15,338 nucleotides of DNA, taken from an uncultured bacterium (GTDB lineage: Bacteria > Patescibacteriota > CALEFQ01). The position numbers and the translations under genes were made by a program. Each line of letters starts with the position of its first letter. The first letter of the stretch is position 1. Below the pieces are notes generated by a model. That model was not told the DNA's origin. It ran no database searches and was given only the letters and a program-made list of their open reading frames with translations. Positions 2,906 through 15,338 of the stretch are shown here, piece by piece. The DNA lies in NCBI GenBank assembly GCA_937877125.1, contig CALEFQ010000102.1, positions 1 to 15,338 on the forward strand. The letters run 5' to 3'.

Positions 2906-3016
2906 AATTTCAAATATCAAATAACCAATATCCAATAAAATTCAAAATCCAATTGTTGAAACAGATAAAATTGCGGATTGAATTTTATTGGATATTTGAG
3001 ATTGGTTATTTAATTT
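2906..3016. repeat. Long imperfect inverted repeat built of 7-bp units
   Basis: The left arm (2906-2954) reads as consecutive heptamers AATTTCA, AATATCA, AATAACC, AATATCC, AATAAAA, TTCAAAA, TCCAATT. The right arm (2975-3016) reads GGATTGA, ATTTTAT, TGGATAT, TTGAGAT, TGGTTAT, TTAATTT and is largely the reverse complement of the left arm. The right arm carries an extra TTGAGAT unit, so the arms differ by whole-unit gain or loss. It lies between the tmRNA 3' end and infC, both on the minus strand. It may shape tmRNA 3' processing or transcription into infC. No other terminator is seen there and no convincing infC promoter was found. Confidence 0.75.
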
Positions 3017-3020
3017 TCAT

Positions 3021-3407
3021 TGGTGGAGATGGGGGGAGTTGAACCCCCGTCTGAATATCCGCGACTAATCACGTTTACTAGTTTAGCCCGCTTGCTTTTT
3101 TCAGCTCCGGCCTAGAAAACGAGCGAAATAACCGGCGCCCAGTCCTTTTTTTTTCGATGTCAGATTAAGGACAAATCCGTCATCTACTCCTGAAAAATAT
3201 AATACCTCAATCTCAGCTCTCAGGTCAGCTAAGCGAGATAGCCGTCGATATTAAGCGACAGCCGGTGCAAAGGAAGGAGCAAAAGCCGCCTTCACGTTGC
3301 TGATAAATGATTTGACACTTATCGATACCAAGGTGGTTTAACGAGACTCTTGGTGACGCTCGACTGGTGTGATGAGCTTTAGATATCCATCGATGCCTGG
3401 CATCCCC
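3021..3407 (-). ncRNA. ssrA: tmRNA (transfer-messenger RNA)
   Basis: About 387 nt. The 5' end GGGGATG (3407-3401) pairs with CATCTCC near the 3' end, giving a 7-bp acceptor stem with a G3-U70 wobble, the alanine identity element. The discriminator A and an encoded CCA follow (3021-3024). The T-arm is GGGGG-TTCAACT-CCCCC. Inside, an open frame ending in TAA at 3253-3251 encodes NVKAAFAPSFAPAVA, a plausible degradation tag ending in the hydrophobic/Ala pattern of SsrA tags. The resume codon is probably AGC (3301-3299) or the AAC after it; the usual GCA is not in frame. The region after the tag can form several stems, as expected for pseudoknots. tmRNA with SmpB and EF-Tu frees ribosomes stalled on broken mRNAs and tags the product. 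The gene is 63 bases downstream of smpB. Confidence 0.95.
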
Positions 3408-3415
3408 GGAAAATA

Positions 3416-3443
3416 AGTCAAAAGTCAAAGGTAAAAAGTCAAA
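3416..3443. repeat. Heptamer array AGTCAAA between smpB and tmRNA
   Basis: Four adjacent 7-bp units: AGTCAAA (3416-3422), AGTCAAA (3423-3429), GGTAAAA (3430-3436), AGTCAAA (3437-3443). The units match those in the hairpin at 12545-12608. The array occupies the position where a tmRNA promoter would be expected, but no clean -35/-10 pair was found. The tmRNA may be made by read-through from smpB. Confidence 0.8.
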
Positions 3444-3470
3444 AATTTGATGAAAGCATGTTGTTAAGGT

Positions 3471-6568: not shown

Positions 6569-6605
6569 AATGACTGGTGGGCGAGCGGTGATTTTTTTCT
6601 CGAAA

Positions 6606-11292: not shown

Positions 11293-11661
11293 ATGATTAC
11301 TGCCGCGATGAAATCAATGATAGAAAACAATGCCTTGGCGGTAGCGACTATTTCGGCCGACCACACTCCGCATTGTATTGCCGTCGGGTATGTCCAGGTG
11401 ATTAATTCGACCCAACTTTTGTTGACGAATAACTACATGCGCCGGACTCCGGAAAATATTAAGCGGATGCCAGCGGTGGCTTGTGCGTTTTGGAGTCCGG
11501 ACTGGAAAAACAAATGCGAAGGATATGAGTTAATTGGATCGGCGGAGTATTTCACCTCCGGTCCTTGGATGGATAAAATCAAGAGTATTCCGGAAAATGA
11601 GGGCGAGCCATGTCGGGGCGCGATCATCATTACGGTTACGGAAATAAAGAATTTGGGCTAA
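11293..11661 (+). CDS. Pyridoxamine 5'-phosphate oxidase-like flavin-binding-fold protein
   Basis: A 122-residue protein of the PNPOx-like split-barrel family. The opening helix (MKSMIENNALAVATISADHTPHCIAVGYVQV) followed by QLLLTNNYMRRTPENIKRMP, then ACAFWSPDWKN, YELIGSAEYF and GAIIITVTEIKNLG follows the usual order of the fold: strand pair, N-capping helix 'T..Ni..nP.va', strand pair, final strand. Members bind FMN or F420, but the ligand and reaction here cannot be told from sequence. Length (about 120) is normal for the small single-domain members. Its start lies 11 bases after the DsbA-like stop, so the two are co-transcribed. A second in-frame ATG at 11308 (MKSMIENN) is an alternative start. 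An intrinsic terminator follows at 11671-11705. Confidence 0.8.
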   Translation: MITAAMKSMIENNALAVATISADHTPHCIAVGYVQVINSTQLLLTNNYMRRTPENIKRMPAVACAFWSPDWKNKCEGYELIGSAEYFTSGPWMDKIKSIPENEGEPCRGAIIITVTEIKNLG

Positions 11662-11714: not shown

Positions 11715-11743
11715 TTGACTAAACTGGTTTTTTATCTTAAAAT
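11715..11743 (+). promoter_or_regulatory. Promoter of the tRNA-Leu locus
   Basis: TTGACT (11715-11720), a 17-base spacer, TAAAAT (11738-11743). The predicted transcription start at about 11750 is 3 bases before the 5' end of the disrupted outer tRNA-Leu, so the promoter belongs to the outer gene and now also serves the nested one. Confidence 0.75.
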
Positions 11744-11792
11744 TTGGGCATCGCCCGGGTGGTGAAATTGGCAAACACGTATTATTGAAAGC

Positions 11793-11806
11793 ATTTTTTC
11801 ATCTGG
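11793..11806. repeat. Left inverted repeat flanking the nested tRNA-Leu
   Basis: ATTTTTTCATCTGG, exact reverse complement of 11890-11903. Together with the acceptor stem of the nested tRNA it would form one long helix interrupted only by the G11807/A11889 mismatch. Confidence 0.9.
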
Positions 11807-11807
11807 G

Positions 11808-11892
11808 GGGCGAGTGGTGAAATTGGCAAACACGTACGGTTCAGGGCCGTATGCCGCAAGGCTTGAGGGTTCAAGTCCCTCCTCGCCCACCA
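11808..11892 (+). tRNA. tRNA-Leu (anticodon CAG)
   Basis: An 85-nt class II tRNA with every element in place: acceptor GGGCGAG/CTCGCCC, TG at 8-9, and D-arm GTG...CAC with the GG of the D-loop. The anticodon stem TACGG/CCGTA encloses loop TTCAGGG (anticodon CAG at 11842-11844, reading CUG). The long variable arm is GCC-GCAA-GGC, the T-arm GAGGG-TTCAAGT-CCCTC, the discriminator A, and CCA is encoded. The long variable arm and A73 agree with leucine. It lies inside the interrupted tRNA-Leu that shares its anticodon and its D-arm sequence, but the acceptor, anticodon stem, variable and T-stem bases differ. It is therefore not a recent copy of the outer gene. The CCA end overlaps the right inverted repeat. 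Confidence 0.97.
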
Positions 11893-11903
11893 GATGAAAA
11901 AAT
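11890..11903. repeat. Right inverted repeat flanking the nested tRNA-Leu
   Basis: CCAGATGAAAAAAT, exact reverse complement of 11793-11806; its first three bases are the CCA end of the nested tRNA. Confidence 0.9.
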
Positions 11904-11915
11904 ACCGGTTGCGTT

Positions 11916-11945
11916 TCCGTCTACGGCGGATCCGCCGTAGGCGGA
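11916..11945. repeat. 30-bp palindrome inserted at the anticodon of the outer tRNA
   Basis: The 20-bp perfect palindrome CTACGGCGGATCCGCCGTAG (11921-11940) is extended by TCCGT on the left and GCGGA on the right (one G-U), giving a 15-bp hairpin without a real loop. It sits exactly between T33 and C34 of the outer tRNA. Its form suggests a small dispersed palindromic element. Confidence 0.85.
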
Positions 11946-12032
11946 CAGGGCGCTAGGGGAGCAATCCCTTGGAGGTTCAAGTCCTCTCCTGGGCACCAGA
12001 AAAGAAAAGTCTTTTCGTGGAATAAATAACCA

Positions 12033-12545
12033 ATGAAGATTTTTATTACAATCTTTTTGCTAGCGGCTCTGCTGGGTCTGGCCGGGTGCAGTACCGATTC
12101 CTTGACCTCCCTGACGAAATTTGGCCCCGAGTCAGATATTAAATTGCCGGAAACTGGTCAGTTTTTCACGCTGGATCGGATTGATAACGCCGGGACATTC
12201 AGCGAATATGTTTCCGTCGGTTATGACGGAAAAGTTAAGATCAACTCGCAAAAGTTAGGTGAGCAGGCCTTGGCGGTCAGTCGCGATGAGGTAGCACAAA
12301 TGTACCAGCTGATCAATGAGCGGCGCTATGACGAATTAAAAGAAAAACTGAAATTAGAAAATTCGGGATCGACTTCTTTCAGCGAAACTTTGACCTTGTT
12401 TAATGAGGAAGGCCGTAAACAGATTTTCGAAATAACCGCGGAAGATTTACAGACGGGAGAAAACACCTTTTTGCCTGACAGCTGGGATGTGGCGCTGACA
12501 AAAATCAGGCGATTCTTGGGGACTTTGACTGGTGAGAAAGACTAA
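12033..12545 (+). CDS. Lipoprotein of unknown function
   Basis: A 170-residue exported lipoprotein. The signal peptide (MKIFITIFLLAALLGLAGC) ends in a clear lipobox, Leu16-Ala17-Gly18-Cys19, so Cys19 should be lipid-modified after cleavage by signal peptidase II. The mature part begins with a Ser/Thr-rich spacer. It has a mixed alpha/beta domain with GQFFTLDRIDNAGTFSEYVS, VGYDGKVKINSQ, a helical VSRDEVAQMYQLINERRYDEL and a final helix DSWDVALTKIRRFLGTL. The strand-Gly-x-Asp-Gly pattern followed by 'L....F.....' helices recalls small cell-envelope lipoproteins of many bacteria, but I do not recognise a named family. The leader GGAATAAATAACCA contains a weak GGA only. It begins 34 bases after the tRNA locus; no separate promoter was identified. 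Confidence 0.85.
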   Translation: MKIFITIFLLAALLGLAGCSTDSLTSLTKFGPESDIKLPETGQFFTLDRIDNAGTFSEYVSVGYDGKVKINSQKLGEQALAVSRDEVAQMYQLINERRYDELKEKLKLENSGSTSFSETLTLFNEEGRKQIFEITAEDLQTGENTFLPDSWDVALTKIRRFLGTLTGEKD

Positions 12546-12608
12546 GTCAAAAATCAAAAGTCAAGAGTTGTTGAAAAAACTTTTGACCTTTGACTTTTTA
12601 CTTCTGAC
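12545..12608. repeat. Inverted repeat made of 7-bp units before ileS
   Basis: The left arm reads AGTCAAA (12545-12551), AATCAAA (12552-12558), AGTCAAG (12559-12565). The right arm reads TTTTGAC (12581-12587), CTTTGAC (12588-12594), TTTTTAC (12595-12601), TTCTGAC (12602-12608), the reverse-complement family. The arms can pair into an imperfect stem of about 25 bp. It begins on the stop codon of the lipoprotein gene and ends 6 bases before the ileS ATG, so it fills the whole gap and may act as a terminator or as a structure in the ileS leader. Confidence 0.8.
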
Positions 12609-12614
12609 TTGAAT

Positions 12615-15338
12615 ATGTTTAAACCCGTTAATCCTAAACAAAATTTTGTCGCTCTCGAGCACGAGATGCTCGATTTTTGGGCGAAACATAAAATTTTCTC
12701 TAAACTCCAACAACAGCTAAAAGGTAATAAGAGCTGGTCGTTTTTAGACGGTCCGATCACGGCCAATAATCCCATGGGCGTTCATCACGCCTGGGGTAGA
12801 ACGCTGAAAGACTTATTCCAGCGTTATTTTGCGATGCGCGGCTACGACCAGCGCTGGCAAAATGGTTTTGACTGCCAGGGCTTGTGGGTGGAGGTGGAAG
12901 TGGAAAAGGAACTGAAATTCAAGACTAAAAAGGACATAGAGAAATTCGGGATCGACAAGTTTGTCGAAAAGTGCAAAGAGCGAGTTCGGAAGTATTCCGC
13001 CATTCAAACCAAACAGTCGATTCGTCTGGGACAGTGGATGGACTGGGACAATTCGTATTACACGATGACTGACGAAAATAATTTTGCCATTTGGCATTTT
13101 CTGAAAACTTGCCACGAGCGCGGCGATTTGTACAAAGGCCGCGATTCCGTGCCTTGGTGCCCGCGTTGCGGGACGGCTATTTCCCAGCATGAAATCTTGA
13201 GCGAGGAATACAAACAACTGAAGCATAAGGCAATTTATTTCAAATTGCCGATCATCGAGCGCCCCGGCGAACAATTCCTGGTTTGGACCACCACTCCCTG
13301 GACGATCCCGGCCAACGTCGCACTGGCGGTCAATCCGGATTTTGATTACGGCGTTTACGCCAAAGACGGCGAAAAGTTTATCATGTTTACGGAGCTGGCG
13401 GCTAAAGTATTAGGGAAGGATTGGAAAGAAGTCGAGAAAGTCTCCGGGGCCAAATTGGCCGGTTTACATTATCGCGGTCCCTTTGATGATTTGGAGCGGG
13501 TGCGCGAGGCGAAAAAGACTAATGAGCAAACTTTCCATTCGGTGGTTGACAGCAAAGATTTAGTCACAGCGGAGGAGGGCACTGGTATCGTGCATATTGC
13601 CCCCGGCGCCGGGACGGAAGATTTTCGACTGGGCCAGGAGAAAAAATTACCGGTCATCGAAGTGATTGATGAAAGCGCGGTTTATCTTGATAAGCTAGGG
13701 GAATTCGTCGGGCAAAACGCCAAAGATAATCCGGGCATAATTTTAGATTATCTCAAAAAGCAAAAGAAACATTATTTTAAGGTGGAAGAATACACCCACC
13801 GCTATCCGACTTGCTGGCGGTGCAAAGACGAACTGGTTTGGCGAGTAGTCGACGAGTGGTATATTTCCATGGACAAATTGCGGCACCAGATGATGGCGGT
13901 CTCCAAAAAAATCAATTGGATCCCGGGCTTCGGCCTGGAGCGCGAATTGGACTGGCTGAAAAATATGCACGATTGGCTGATTTCCAAGAAGCGCTATTGG
14001 GGATTAGCTTTGCCGATCTGGGAATGCCAGTGCGGCCATTTTGAAGTGATCGGTTCTCGCGAAGAATTGGAACAGAAAGCGGTTGAGGGTTTCGATCAGC
14101 TCGCCGGTCACAGTCCGCACAAACCCTGGATCGACGCGGTCAAGATTAAATGCCCGAAATGCGGAAAACTGGTCAGCCGCGTGCCTGATGTCGGCAATCC
14201 CTGGCTGGATGCTGGTATTGTGCCTTTTTCTACCATGGGCTATTTCCGCGACAAAAAATACTGGCAGAAATGGTTCCCGGCGGATTTCATTTGCGAGTCT
14301 TTTCCGGGACAGTTCAAGAACTGGTTTTATTCGCTGATCGCGATGAGTACGGCGCTGGAAAACACCAATCCTTTCCAAACGGTTCTCGGTTATGCGACGG
14401 TCAAGGATGAAAAAGGCGAGGAAATGCACAAATCGAAAGGTAACGCCATTTGGTTTGATGACGCGGCGGAAAAAATCGGCGTCGATGTGATGCGCTGGAT
14501 GTATTGTACCCAGCCGCCCGAGGCTAATCTGCGTTTCGGCTATCACGCGGCGGATGAAGTGCGGCGTAAACTGCTGCTGCTTTGGAACGTGTATGTTTTC
14601 TTTACCACTTATGCCAATATCGATAAGCCTAAGTTAGGCCTGGTCGGGACAGCGCCGAAACACAAGTTGGATCGCTGGATCCTATCGGCTTTACACGAGC
14701 TGATTGCGGCGACCAATGAATCATTGGCCAAATACGACCAGGCCGCGGTAGTCGCTAAGACGGAAAAATTCATCGACAGCCTGGCGAACTGGTATGTCCG
14801 CCGTTCCCGCCGCCGTTTCTGGAAGAGCGAAAGCGATGCCGACAAAGCCGAGGCGTATCAGGTGCTTTATACGGTTTTGCTGACCATGGCCAAATTGCTG
14901 GCGCCGTTCATTCCGTTCATTACGGAATCAATTTATCAAAACCTGAAGCGTGAAAAAGATCCCGAGTCGATTCACCTGGCGGCCTATCCCCAGGCAGACC
15001 GCCAGCTAATTGATGAAAAGCTAAATCGCGAGATGGAATTAGTTTTACAAGTCGTCCGTTTGGGCCGAGCCGCCCGGGAAAAAGGCAAGGTTAAGGTGCG
15101 TCAGCCTCTCGGCGAAATGCTGATCGCCGGCGGGCAGATGACTGACGATCTGACCGGCCAAGTGAAGGAAGAGCTTAATCTTAAACAGCTTAAATTTATT
15201 GAGACGGCCGAAAAGTACGCGACCAAGAAGATCAAGCTGAATTTCCCGTTATTGGGCAAAAAATACGGCCCGGCACTTAAAGAAATCCAAGCGGCACTCG
15301 CGGATAATTATAATCAGGATGAATCAGGCACTTTGAAG
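12615..15338 (+). CDS. ileS: Isoleucine--tRNA ligase (3' end beyond the window)
   Basis: 908 codons are open from the ATG at 12615 to the window edge with no stop. This class I synthetase charges tRNA-Ile. The catalytic core begins with SWSFLDGPITANNPMGVHHAWG; the HIGH-equivalent is His57-His58-Ala-Trp. NGFDCQGLWVEVEVEKEL follows. The CP1 editing domain contains FLVWTTTPWTIPANVALAV and GTGIVHIAPGAGTEDF. Cysteine pairs Cys182/185, Cys400/403, Cys471/473 and Cys513/516 could bind zinc. The KMSKS-equivalent is MHKSKGN at 604-610, with Lys replaced by Met-His at its start; GVDVMRWMYCTQPPEANLRFGY after it supports an IleRS-type tail. The anticodon-binding domain contains LANWYVRRSRRRFWKS. ValRS is less likely because the second signature and the WVEVEVEKEL block fit IleRS. 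The start lies 6 bases after the heptamer hairpin, without a Shine-Dalgarno motif. Confidence 0.95.
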   Translation, partial: MFKPVNPKQNFVALEHEMLDFWAKHKIFSKLQQQLKGNKSWSFLDGPITANNPMGVHHAWGRTLKDLFQRYFAMRGYDQRWQNGFDCQGLWVEVEVEKELKFKTKKDIEKFGIDKFVEKCKERVRKYSAIQTKQSIRLGQWMDWDNSYYTMTDENNFAIWHFLKTCHERGDLYKGRDSVPWCPRCGTAISQHEILSEEYKQLKHKAIYFKLPIIERPGEQFLVWTTTPWTIPANVALAVNPDFDYGVYAKDGEKFIMFTELAAKVLGKDWKEVEKVSGAKLAGLHYRGPFDDLERVREAKKTNEQTFHSVVDSKDLVTAEEGTGIVHIAPGAGTEDFRLGQEKKLPVIEVIDESAVYLDKLGEFVGQNAKDNPGIILDYLKKQKKHYFKVEEYTHRYPTCWRCKDELVWRVVDEWYISMDKLRHQMMAVSKKINWIPGFGLERELDWLKNMHDWLISKKRYWGLALPIWECQCGHFEVIGSREELEQKAVEGFDQLAGHSPHKPWIDAVKIKCPKCGKLVSRVPDVGNPWLDAGIVPFSTMGYFRDKKYWQKWFPADFICESFPGQFKNWFYSLIAMSTALENTNPFQTVLGYATVKDEKGEEMHKSKGNAIWFDDAAEKIGVDVMRWMYCTQPPEANLRFGYHAADEVRRKLLLLWNVYVFFTTYANIDKPKLGLVGTAPKHKLDRWILSALHELIAATNESLAKYDQAAVVAKTEKFIDSLANWYVRRSRRRFWKSESDADKAEAYQVLYTVLLTMAKLLAPFIPFITESIYQNLKREKDPESIHLAAYPQADRQLIDEKLNREMELVLQVVRLGRAAREKGKVKVRQPLGEMLIAGGQMTDDLTGQVKEELNLKQLKFIETAEKYATKKIKLNFPLLGKKYGPALKEIQAALADNYNQDESGTLK

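Follow-up and report, generated by a model that had tools for sequence, protein, structure and literature searches.

Layered tRNA genes in Patescibacteria point to probable serial in-place replacement by palindrome-bounded cassettes

Certain tRNA genes of several uncultured Patescibacteria with small genomes have probably been replaced in place, serially, by palindrome-bounded DNA cassettes that carry a tRNA gene. Here, we report one such locus in a 15,338-nucleotide stretch of DNA (the window), in which a complete tRNA-Leu(CAG) gene lies inside a broken tRNA-Leu gene. Observed in the analysis were recurrence of the architecture, the same isoacceptor inside and outside where the outer layer is readable, palindromic families, many decayed outer genes, and empty sites at one locus.

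The composite locus lies between a PNPOx-fold gene (11293 to 11661) and a lipoprotein-like open reading frame, which is followed by ileS (12609 to 15338). Most of the named relatives among 120 matches listed for the window's IleS are Patescibacteria or Parcubacteria. The parts of the locus are as follows.

11715 to 11743, + strand: promoter-like site (TTGACT, 17-nt spacer, TAAAAT; 10 of 12 consensus positions); could drive the composite, weak
11753 to 11781, + strand: outer, broken tRNA-Leu, 5' part with acceptor GCCCGGG, D-arm, and the beginning of the anticodon stem (shuffle P of ~0.01)
11782 to 11910, + strand: 129-nt insert holding the inner tRNA; comparable architecture at other loci
11793 to 11806, + strand: left arm of a 14-bp inverted repeat that directly flanks the inner tRNA (P of ~0.001)
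11808 to 11892, + strand: inner tRNA-Leu(CAG), complete, with encoded CCA (ARAGORN; Rfam RF00005)
11890 to 11903, + strand: right arm of the 14-bp inverted repeat, taking in the inner CCA
11911 to 11915, + strand: GCGTT, outer anticodon-stem letters pairing with CGC at 11951 to 11953 (assignment likely, weak alone)
11916 to 11945, + strand: 30-nt palindrome, one of a dispersed family, lodged in the anticodon loop of the outer gene
11946 to 11998, + strand: outer tRNA-Leu, 3' part, with anticodon letters, variable and T-arms, acceptor, and CCA (shuffle P of ~0.01)

The inverted repeat extends to a pair of 22-nt arms when the inner acceptor stem is counted. The complete tRNA-Leu(CAG) that the initial annotation had read in the insert was confirmed by ARAGORN and by RF00005 (11808 to 11889, 53.1 bits; cut-off, 29). 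It has the cloverleaf, long variable arm, A before CCA, and Leu anticodon expected of a bacterial tRNA-Leu, and it is 92% and 89% identical to the tRNA-Leu(CAG) genes of genomes G188 and G175, respectively; on the best reading of the window, this inner gene would be the working one. A promoter had been placed 3 bases before the old gene; the site in fact ends 9 nt before 11753, and finding one such site against 0.7 per shuffle is within chance.

Elsewhere in the window, a tmRNA gene (3021 to 3407, − strand) with a long tag, VKSFISNVKAAFAPSFAPAVA (21 amino acids), lies beside smpB, and a 43-nt imperfect inverted repeat stands just downstream of it (2912 to 3011); a similar tmRNA tag, ANSLASKVKNAFAFSPALAVA, was seen at locus L282 in genome G132. 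Repeats rich in AAGTCAAAAGTC occur in direct and inverted orientation at 3415 to 3449 and 12544 to 12610. A stretch of 21 nt (6574 to 6594), perhaps another tRNA-Leu fragment, shows 81% complementarity with the inner tRNA at its 3' end.

No program (ARAGORN, Rfam models) called the outer tRNA in the native sequence. Its 3' fragment does match Leu tRNAs from other Patescibacteria, for example over 42/42 nt at L154, 49/51 at L156, and 39/40 at L155. With 11782 to 11910 and 11916 to 11945 both removed in script, ARAGORN called an 87-nt tRNA-Leu(cag); there was no outer Leu call with only one stretch removed or with all of 11782 to 11945 removed, and in intron mode the form lacking the 129 nt was called as Gly(tcc) with a 30-nt intron. 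This acceptance was rejected as proof of a single outer gene, since 504 of 1,024 five-base linkers replacing GCGTT also gave a Leu call; because, in addition, the acceptor halves pair 7/7 in 713 of 3,660 ordered pairs of different Leu genes, the perfect outer fold discriminates little. Although the acceptor halves of the window pair, the concordance of its outer halves looks chimeric: at −0.77, it is below that of all 61 intact Leu tRNAs (mean, 4.74; standard deviation, 2.47) and similar to that of random Leu chimeras (mean, −0.04). The outer anticodon, annotated as CAG, is likely so, not certain, because it is read beside a palindrome whose copies have preferred flanking letters.

The D-arm of the outer gene is identical to that of the inner gene over 23 nt. 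Other within-genome pairs differ at 5.0 positions on average (zero in 1 of 32), and pairs from different genomes differ at 5.07 (zero in 3 of 1,443). No genome among 31, judged on the loci examined, had two different intact CAG genes. Gene conversion would explain both the D-arm identity and the chimera-like halves of the window. One outer gene, with its D-arm converted by a nearby copy, is favored because the halves pair in 11 of the 15 outer genes that were rejoined in script (borders set by eye); set against the 713 of 3,660 random Leu pairs, acceptors that pair without mismatch in 11 of 15 also argue that outer halves belong together.

For the window only, the halves might instead derive from separate tRNA-Leu genes in a cluster that has decayed, their nesting being accidental, an origin that we regard as unlikely. 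The chimera-like halves speak for it, as do their differing nearest relatives, and tandem tRNA-Leu(CAG) and tRNA-Leu(GAG) genes 21 nt apart do exist at L153. Many genomes, however, share the architecture with pairing outer halves, the anticodon stem matches (TAGCG/CGCTA), and a palindrome occupies the same anticodon-loop position in G384 and G215. The window passes a two-sided shuffle test (P of ~0.01 on each side, 100 shuffles). That the feature goes beyond chance or misassembly is supported mainly by its recurrence in other genomes, and on that ground the nesting of a tRNA-Leu(CAG) in a broken tRNA-Leu, as first annotated, is real.

Reading by eye showed the nested architecture at 22 loci besides the window, spread over 17 other genomes, which with the window makes 23 nest loci in 18 genomes; 14 of the genomes belong to one class, from which 49 genomes were searched with the locus DNA (chosen since G317 gave the best ArgRS match). 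The further nests were as follows.

G384, G215, G119, G250, G196, G079, and G188: Leu(CAG) nests, from the flanks of 30 tRNA-Leu(CAG) loci
G164 and G132: Leu(CAG) nests, via TTTACCCCGYAC loci
G333, G392, G266, and G250: Leu(CAA) nests, via TTTACCCCGYAC loci
G215, G063, and G386: Pro(CGG) nests, via TTTACCCCGYAC loci
G386: Arg(CCT) nest, via TTTACCCCGYAC loci
G359: Ile(GAT) nest, via TTTACCCCGYAC loci
G386: Pro(GGG) nest, from L232
G386, at a contig start: partial nest with two outer 3' halves, L205
Candidatus Woykebacteria RBG_13_40_15: Thr(CGT) nest, L015
Candidatus Curtissbacteria RIFCSPLOWO2_02_41_11: Val(CAC) nest, L052

The borders of exons, and most of the nests, were assigned by eye. 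The nest test asked whether the sequences on both sides of an intact tRNA resemble the ends of that kind of tRNA more closely than shuffled sequences do. In its first application, 18 of 123 places were positive, and 14 of these, the window included, were judged to be nests, with each flank exceeding at least 98% of shuffles; the four others were discarded (tandem genes at L153, one place at L191, and two at L199). Applied to places without an intact same-strand neighbor, the test gave 9 positives among 75 in L153 to L305 and 2 among 25 in L001 to L146, intended as a control, where both positives (L015, L052) are nests in other Patescibacteria. Two-sided testing covered 22 of the 23 nests (L205 was left out); 16 passed, the window and 15 others, and 6 passed on one side only.

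Nested genes serve Leu(CAG), Leu(CAA), Pro, Arg, Ile, Thr, and Val, and the outer anticodon equals the inner one in 12 of 12 readable outer layers (by eye). C stands at the first anticodon position in 21 of 23 nests and, as the search was biased towards Leu(CAG), in 10 of 12 when Leu(CAG) is set aside. Inserts measure ~115 to 195 nt in seven Leu(CAG) nests (by eye). The outer gene of G384 has one break after GGCAGA and another between TT and CAGG; it rejoins as tRNA-Leu(cag) and is closest to an intact gene of G266. In G215, an undamaged tRNA-Leu(cag) lies in five exons with four inserts between them. A leader-trailer helix, seen in 4 of 14 inner-type genes (L180, L181, L188, and L192), was dropped as a trait of free-standing genes when three of the four proved nested (3 of 5 nested versus 1 of 9 single inner-type genes); it was found in none of 23 rows of outer-type genes, which include two genes twice (one further gene was too short).

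Uninterrupted genes at the same place in relatives, which the initial annotation had proposed to look for, were found for nests other than the window's. The end of an SBP-like gene lies upstream at 18 of the 30 tRNA-Leu(CAG) loci, and 12 of these 18 hold a single intact gene and 6 hold a nest; the window lies at a different locus, and no empty site for it was found in the genomes searched. Close relatives of the window were sought by proteins. The best IleS among 80 loci was 62% identical, IleS being a poor marker (it recovers 1 of 4 order members at an E value of 1e-300); one ArgRS scan found none, and the best match in further ArgRS searches was 46%. Nearer kin exist among protein records only (IleS, 88%; ArgRS, 74%).

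Many inserts begin with TTTACCCCGYAC, and the left ends of several read TTTACCCCG(C/T)AC. The TTTACCCCGYAC 12-mer occurs at 46 places in 20 of the 49 genomes (reversed control, 12); of 30 such loci examined by eye, 12 are tRNA nests and ~10 others are palindromes without a tRNA. The TTTACCCCG ... CGGGG ends present at other nests are absent from the window insert, which has its different 14-bp repeat. Ends resembling CCCCGCACC ... GGTGCGGGG were also seen by eye without a tRNA at L276, L292, L293, L296, L297, L301, and L305. The L276 copy apparently lies within a pilin-like coding sequence (by eye).

Besides tRNA matches, the locus search gave hits confined to the 30-nt palindrome, ten of which read TCCGCC-nnn-GGCGGA-TCCGCC-nnn-GGCGGA. 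With up to 3 mismatches, this pattern occurs at 137 places in 27 of the 49 genomes (reversed control, 0), with at least two copies in 20 genomes and up to 19 per genome. The copy in the window departs from it at 5 positions, 1 of the 24 in the stems and 4 of the 6 in the loops, which accounts for its own 30-mer (up to 3 mismatches) being found in 0 of 379 genomes. The outer genes of G384, G215, G132, and G250 carry related palindromes at the corresponding tRNA position. In related genomes, the stretch resembles REP elements in size and copy number (palindromes of 20 to 40 nt, several copies per genome); REP palindromes are reported to have a GTAG or CGTC tag at one end, and this tag is absent from 11916 to 11945. 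Some known small dispersed palindromes lodge inside genes.

Eroded prophages or islands, in which an integrase-targeted tRNA gene kept the element's replacement tRNA while all else was deleted, offer another account of the nests, one that we consider improbable. Its logic has been published for Lys and Leu tRNAs (PMC10865867), in three IMG/VR contigs (L148, L150, and L152) only a short gap separates the 5' half of a tRNA-Leu from a complete tRNA-Leu(TAA), and some related tRNAs have 3' ends repeated downstream (L154), as islands leave. The inserts, however, are short and alike and are bounded by inverted repeats, and neither tRNA type of the window was found in viral contigs by exact pattern; a phage origin of the window tRNAs was discarded on these zero matches for each pattern. 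A plasmid search returned two partial matches. A conventional integrative element is unsupported, because no integrase was found in 14 scanned window proteins and the two window junctions share 5 nt at most, with no att core. Of the tRNA-restoring integrative element first proposed for the window, what is supported is a nearly tRNA-only element replacing the gene that it breaks, its architecture recurring at 22 other loci.

A 205-kb viral contig (L149) holds, at 2380 to 2560, a tRNA-Leu-like sequence with an anticodon-loop insert of ~50 nt ending in CACCA, and a 5' tRNA-Leu half lies just upstream, possibly a comparable nesting in a phage. The phage-like contigs L148 and L150 have a long open reading frame that, by reading, resembles a T7-type RNA polymerase. 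At L154, L189, L191, L199, L210, L211, and L226, tRNA 3' ends seem to be repeated downstream within ~360 nt, perhaps as remnants of islands or nests.

The outer layers differ in their state. For 7 of the 15 rejoined outers, the call was a tRNA-Leu whose anticodon is that of the inner gene (5 cag, 2 caa); two of these carry faults, an acceptor mismatch in G266 and a G before CCA in G079. Five of 15 are undamaged, with full acceptors and A before CCA (the window, the Leu outers of G384 and G215, the middle layer of G132, and G392). The other eight comprise G164, called as Thr(agt), two that the caller left undetermined, and five without a call. Genome G132 has three layers: the outermost is the most damaged, its 3' part holding further palindromes and ending in TCA; the middle tRNA-Leu(CAG) rejoins perfectly; and the innermost gene is intact. 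The middle type (acceptor GCTCGAG) is the intact inner gene of G079 and G164, and the innermost type (GGGTACG) is similar to the gene that forms the outer layer in G079. By eye, the Pro nests of G386 and the Ile nest of G359 look deeper than two layers. A difference in age among the layers accounts for this spread of states better than uniform function does.

It is very unlikely, in our judgment, that the outers are functional multi-intron bacterial tRNAs whose hairpins and tRNA-bearing insert are removed from the RNA. Most inserts do lie in loops, and their positions recur (nt 14 to 16, 22 to 24, or 33 to 35 for 18 of 21 in nine Leu outers); a third of the outers are undamaged, the one of G215 despite four inserts. 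Yet 8 of 15 fail to rejoin into the inner isoacceptor, the base before CCA in G079 and the TCA end of the outermost G132 layer are faulty as described, and the palindromes are dispersed DNA repeats. The repeated positions may, speculatively, reflect choice of target, such as single-stranded DNA loops, rather than splicing. No group I or II intron model of Rfam matched in the window at E values up to 1. A bulge-helix-bulge motif is a 4-bp helix between two 3-nt bulges; none was seen at the junctions (fold judged by eye), where the 30-nt stretch forms a self-contained hairpin. The two-intron pre-tRNA that the initial annotation had offered as an alternative is weakened because its 30-nt insert is a dispersed repeat and eight outers no longer rejoin, and it is left with the undamaged outers. 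For these, excision of palindromic inserts from the RNA, so that a locus yields two or three tRNAs, one from the intron of another, seems slighter still in probability.

Under serial replacement, then, the unit would be a short DNA cassette with a complete tRNA gene between inverted repeats. It would land in the resident gene of its own isoacceptor, in most cases close to where the D-stem ends, breaking that gene, whose role the cassette tRNA would take over. The old halves would remain on both sides as dead layers, decaying and gathering more palindromes in the D-loop, anticodon loop, and T-loop, and a later cassette could land in the new gene to give layers like Russian dolls. In the window, transcription of the inner tRNA probably begins from the old promoter and takes in the 5' half as a leader. 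Movement of the cassette as DNA, silence of the outer genes, and the manner of their transcription are inferences. Targeting of the same isoacceptor may reflect homology or only the survival of cells whose loss was covered. Counting against serial replacement are the assignment of borders and most nests by eye, the undamaged outers with up to four inserts (G215), surprising for dead genes, and, in the window, the lack of TTTACCCCG ends on the insert, the chimera-like halves, the identity of the two D-arms, and a palindrome copy that strays from its family pattern and has no match among 379 genomes.

Genes for tRNAs are usually taken as inherited and stable; here, they seem to be replaced repeatedly in place by fresh copies with their own inverted repeats, the layers recording the order of events. 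A mobile unit that carries nothing beyond the gene it has only just destroyed would count as a selfish element of very small size. Codons of C34 isoacceptors, the kind hit in most nests, are usually readable by a U34 partner, which would carry a cell through the loss. Broken layers may confound tRNA counts in these genomes, and L015 and L052 are named loci for a direct test of splicing.

No report of nested tRNA genes of this kind was found in the open-licence literature. In tRNA-dependent lysogeny of actinobacteriophages, as in the nests, a host tRNA gene is broken by an insert that brings along a complete tRNA of matching isotype (PMC10865867). That insert is a whole prophage with an integrase and an 8- to 17-bp core, whereas the nests hold little but the tRNA, are layered, and span six amino-acid families; with no integrase among the 14 scanned proteins and no core, the window is not a member on present evidence. 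The tRNA-Thr(GGU) gene of Caldiarchaeum is likewise split by a mobile element in a natural population (PMC3293823), but that case is archaeal, with a 1.8-kb element bearing a recombinase gene and with true introns, and its abstract describes no complete tRNA inside the broken one. Genomic islands also use tRNA genes as insertion places, but they restore the target from carried sequence, whereas each nest encloses a complete second gene and leaves the old one unrestored (PMC4383910). REP palindromes, REPINs, and Rickettsia palindromic elements are small dispersed palindromes like those described here (PMC3733652, PMC3116915, PMC2694212); unlike them, the present palindromes accumulate in broken tRNA genes at fixed positions, and related ones enclose a tRNA.
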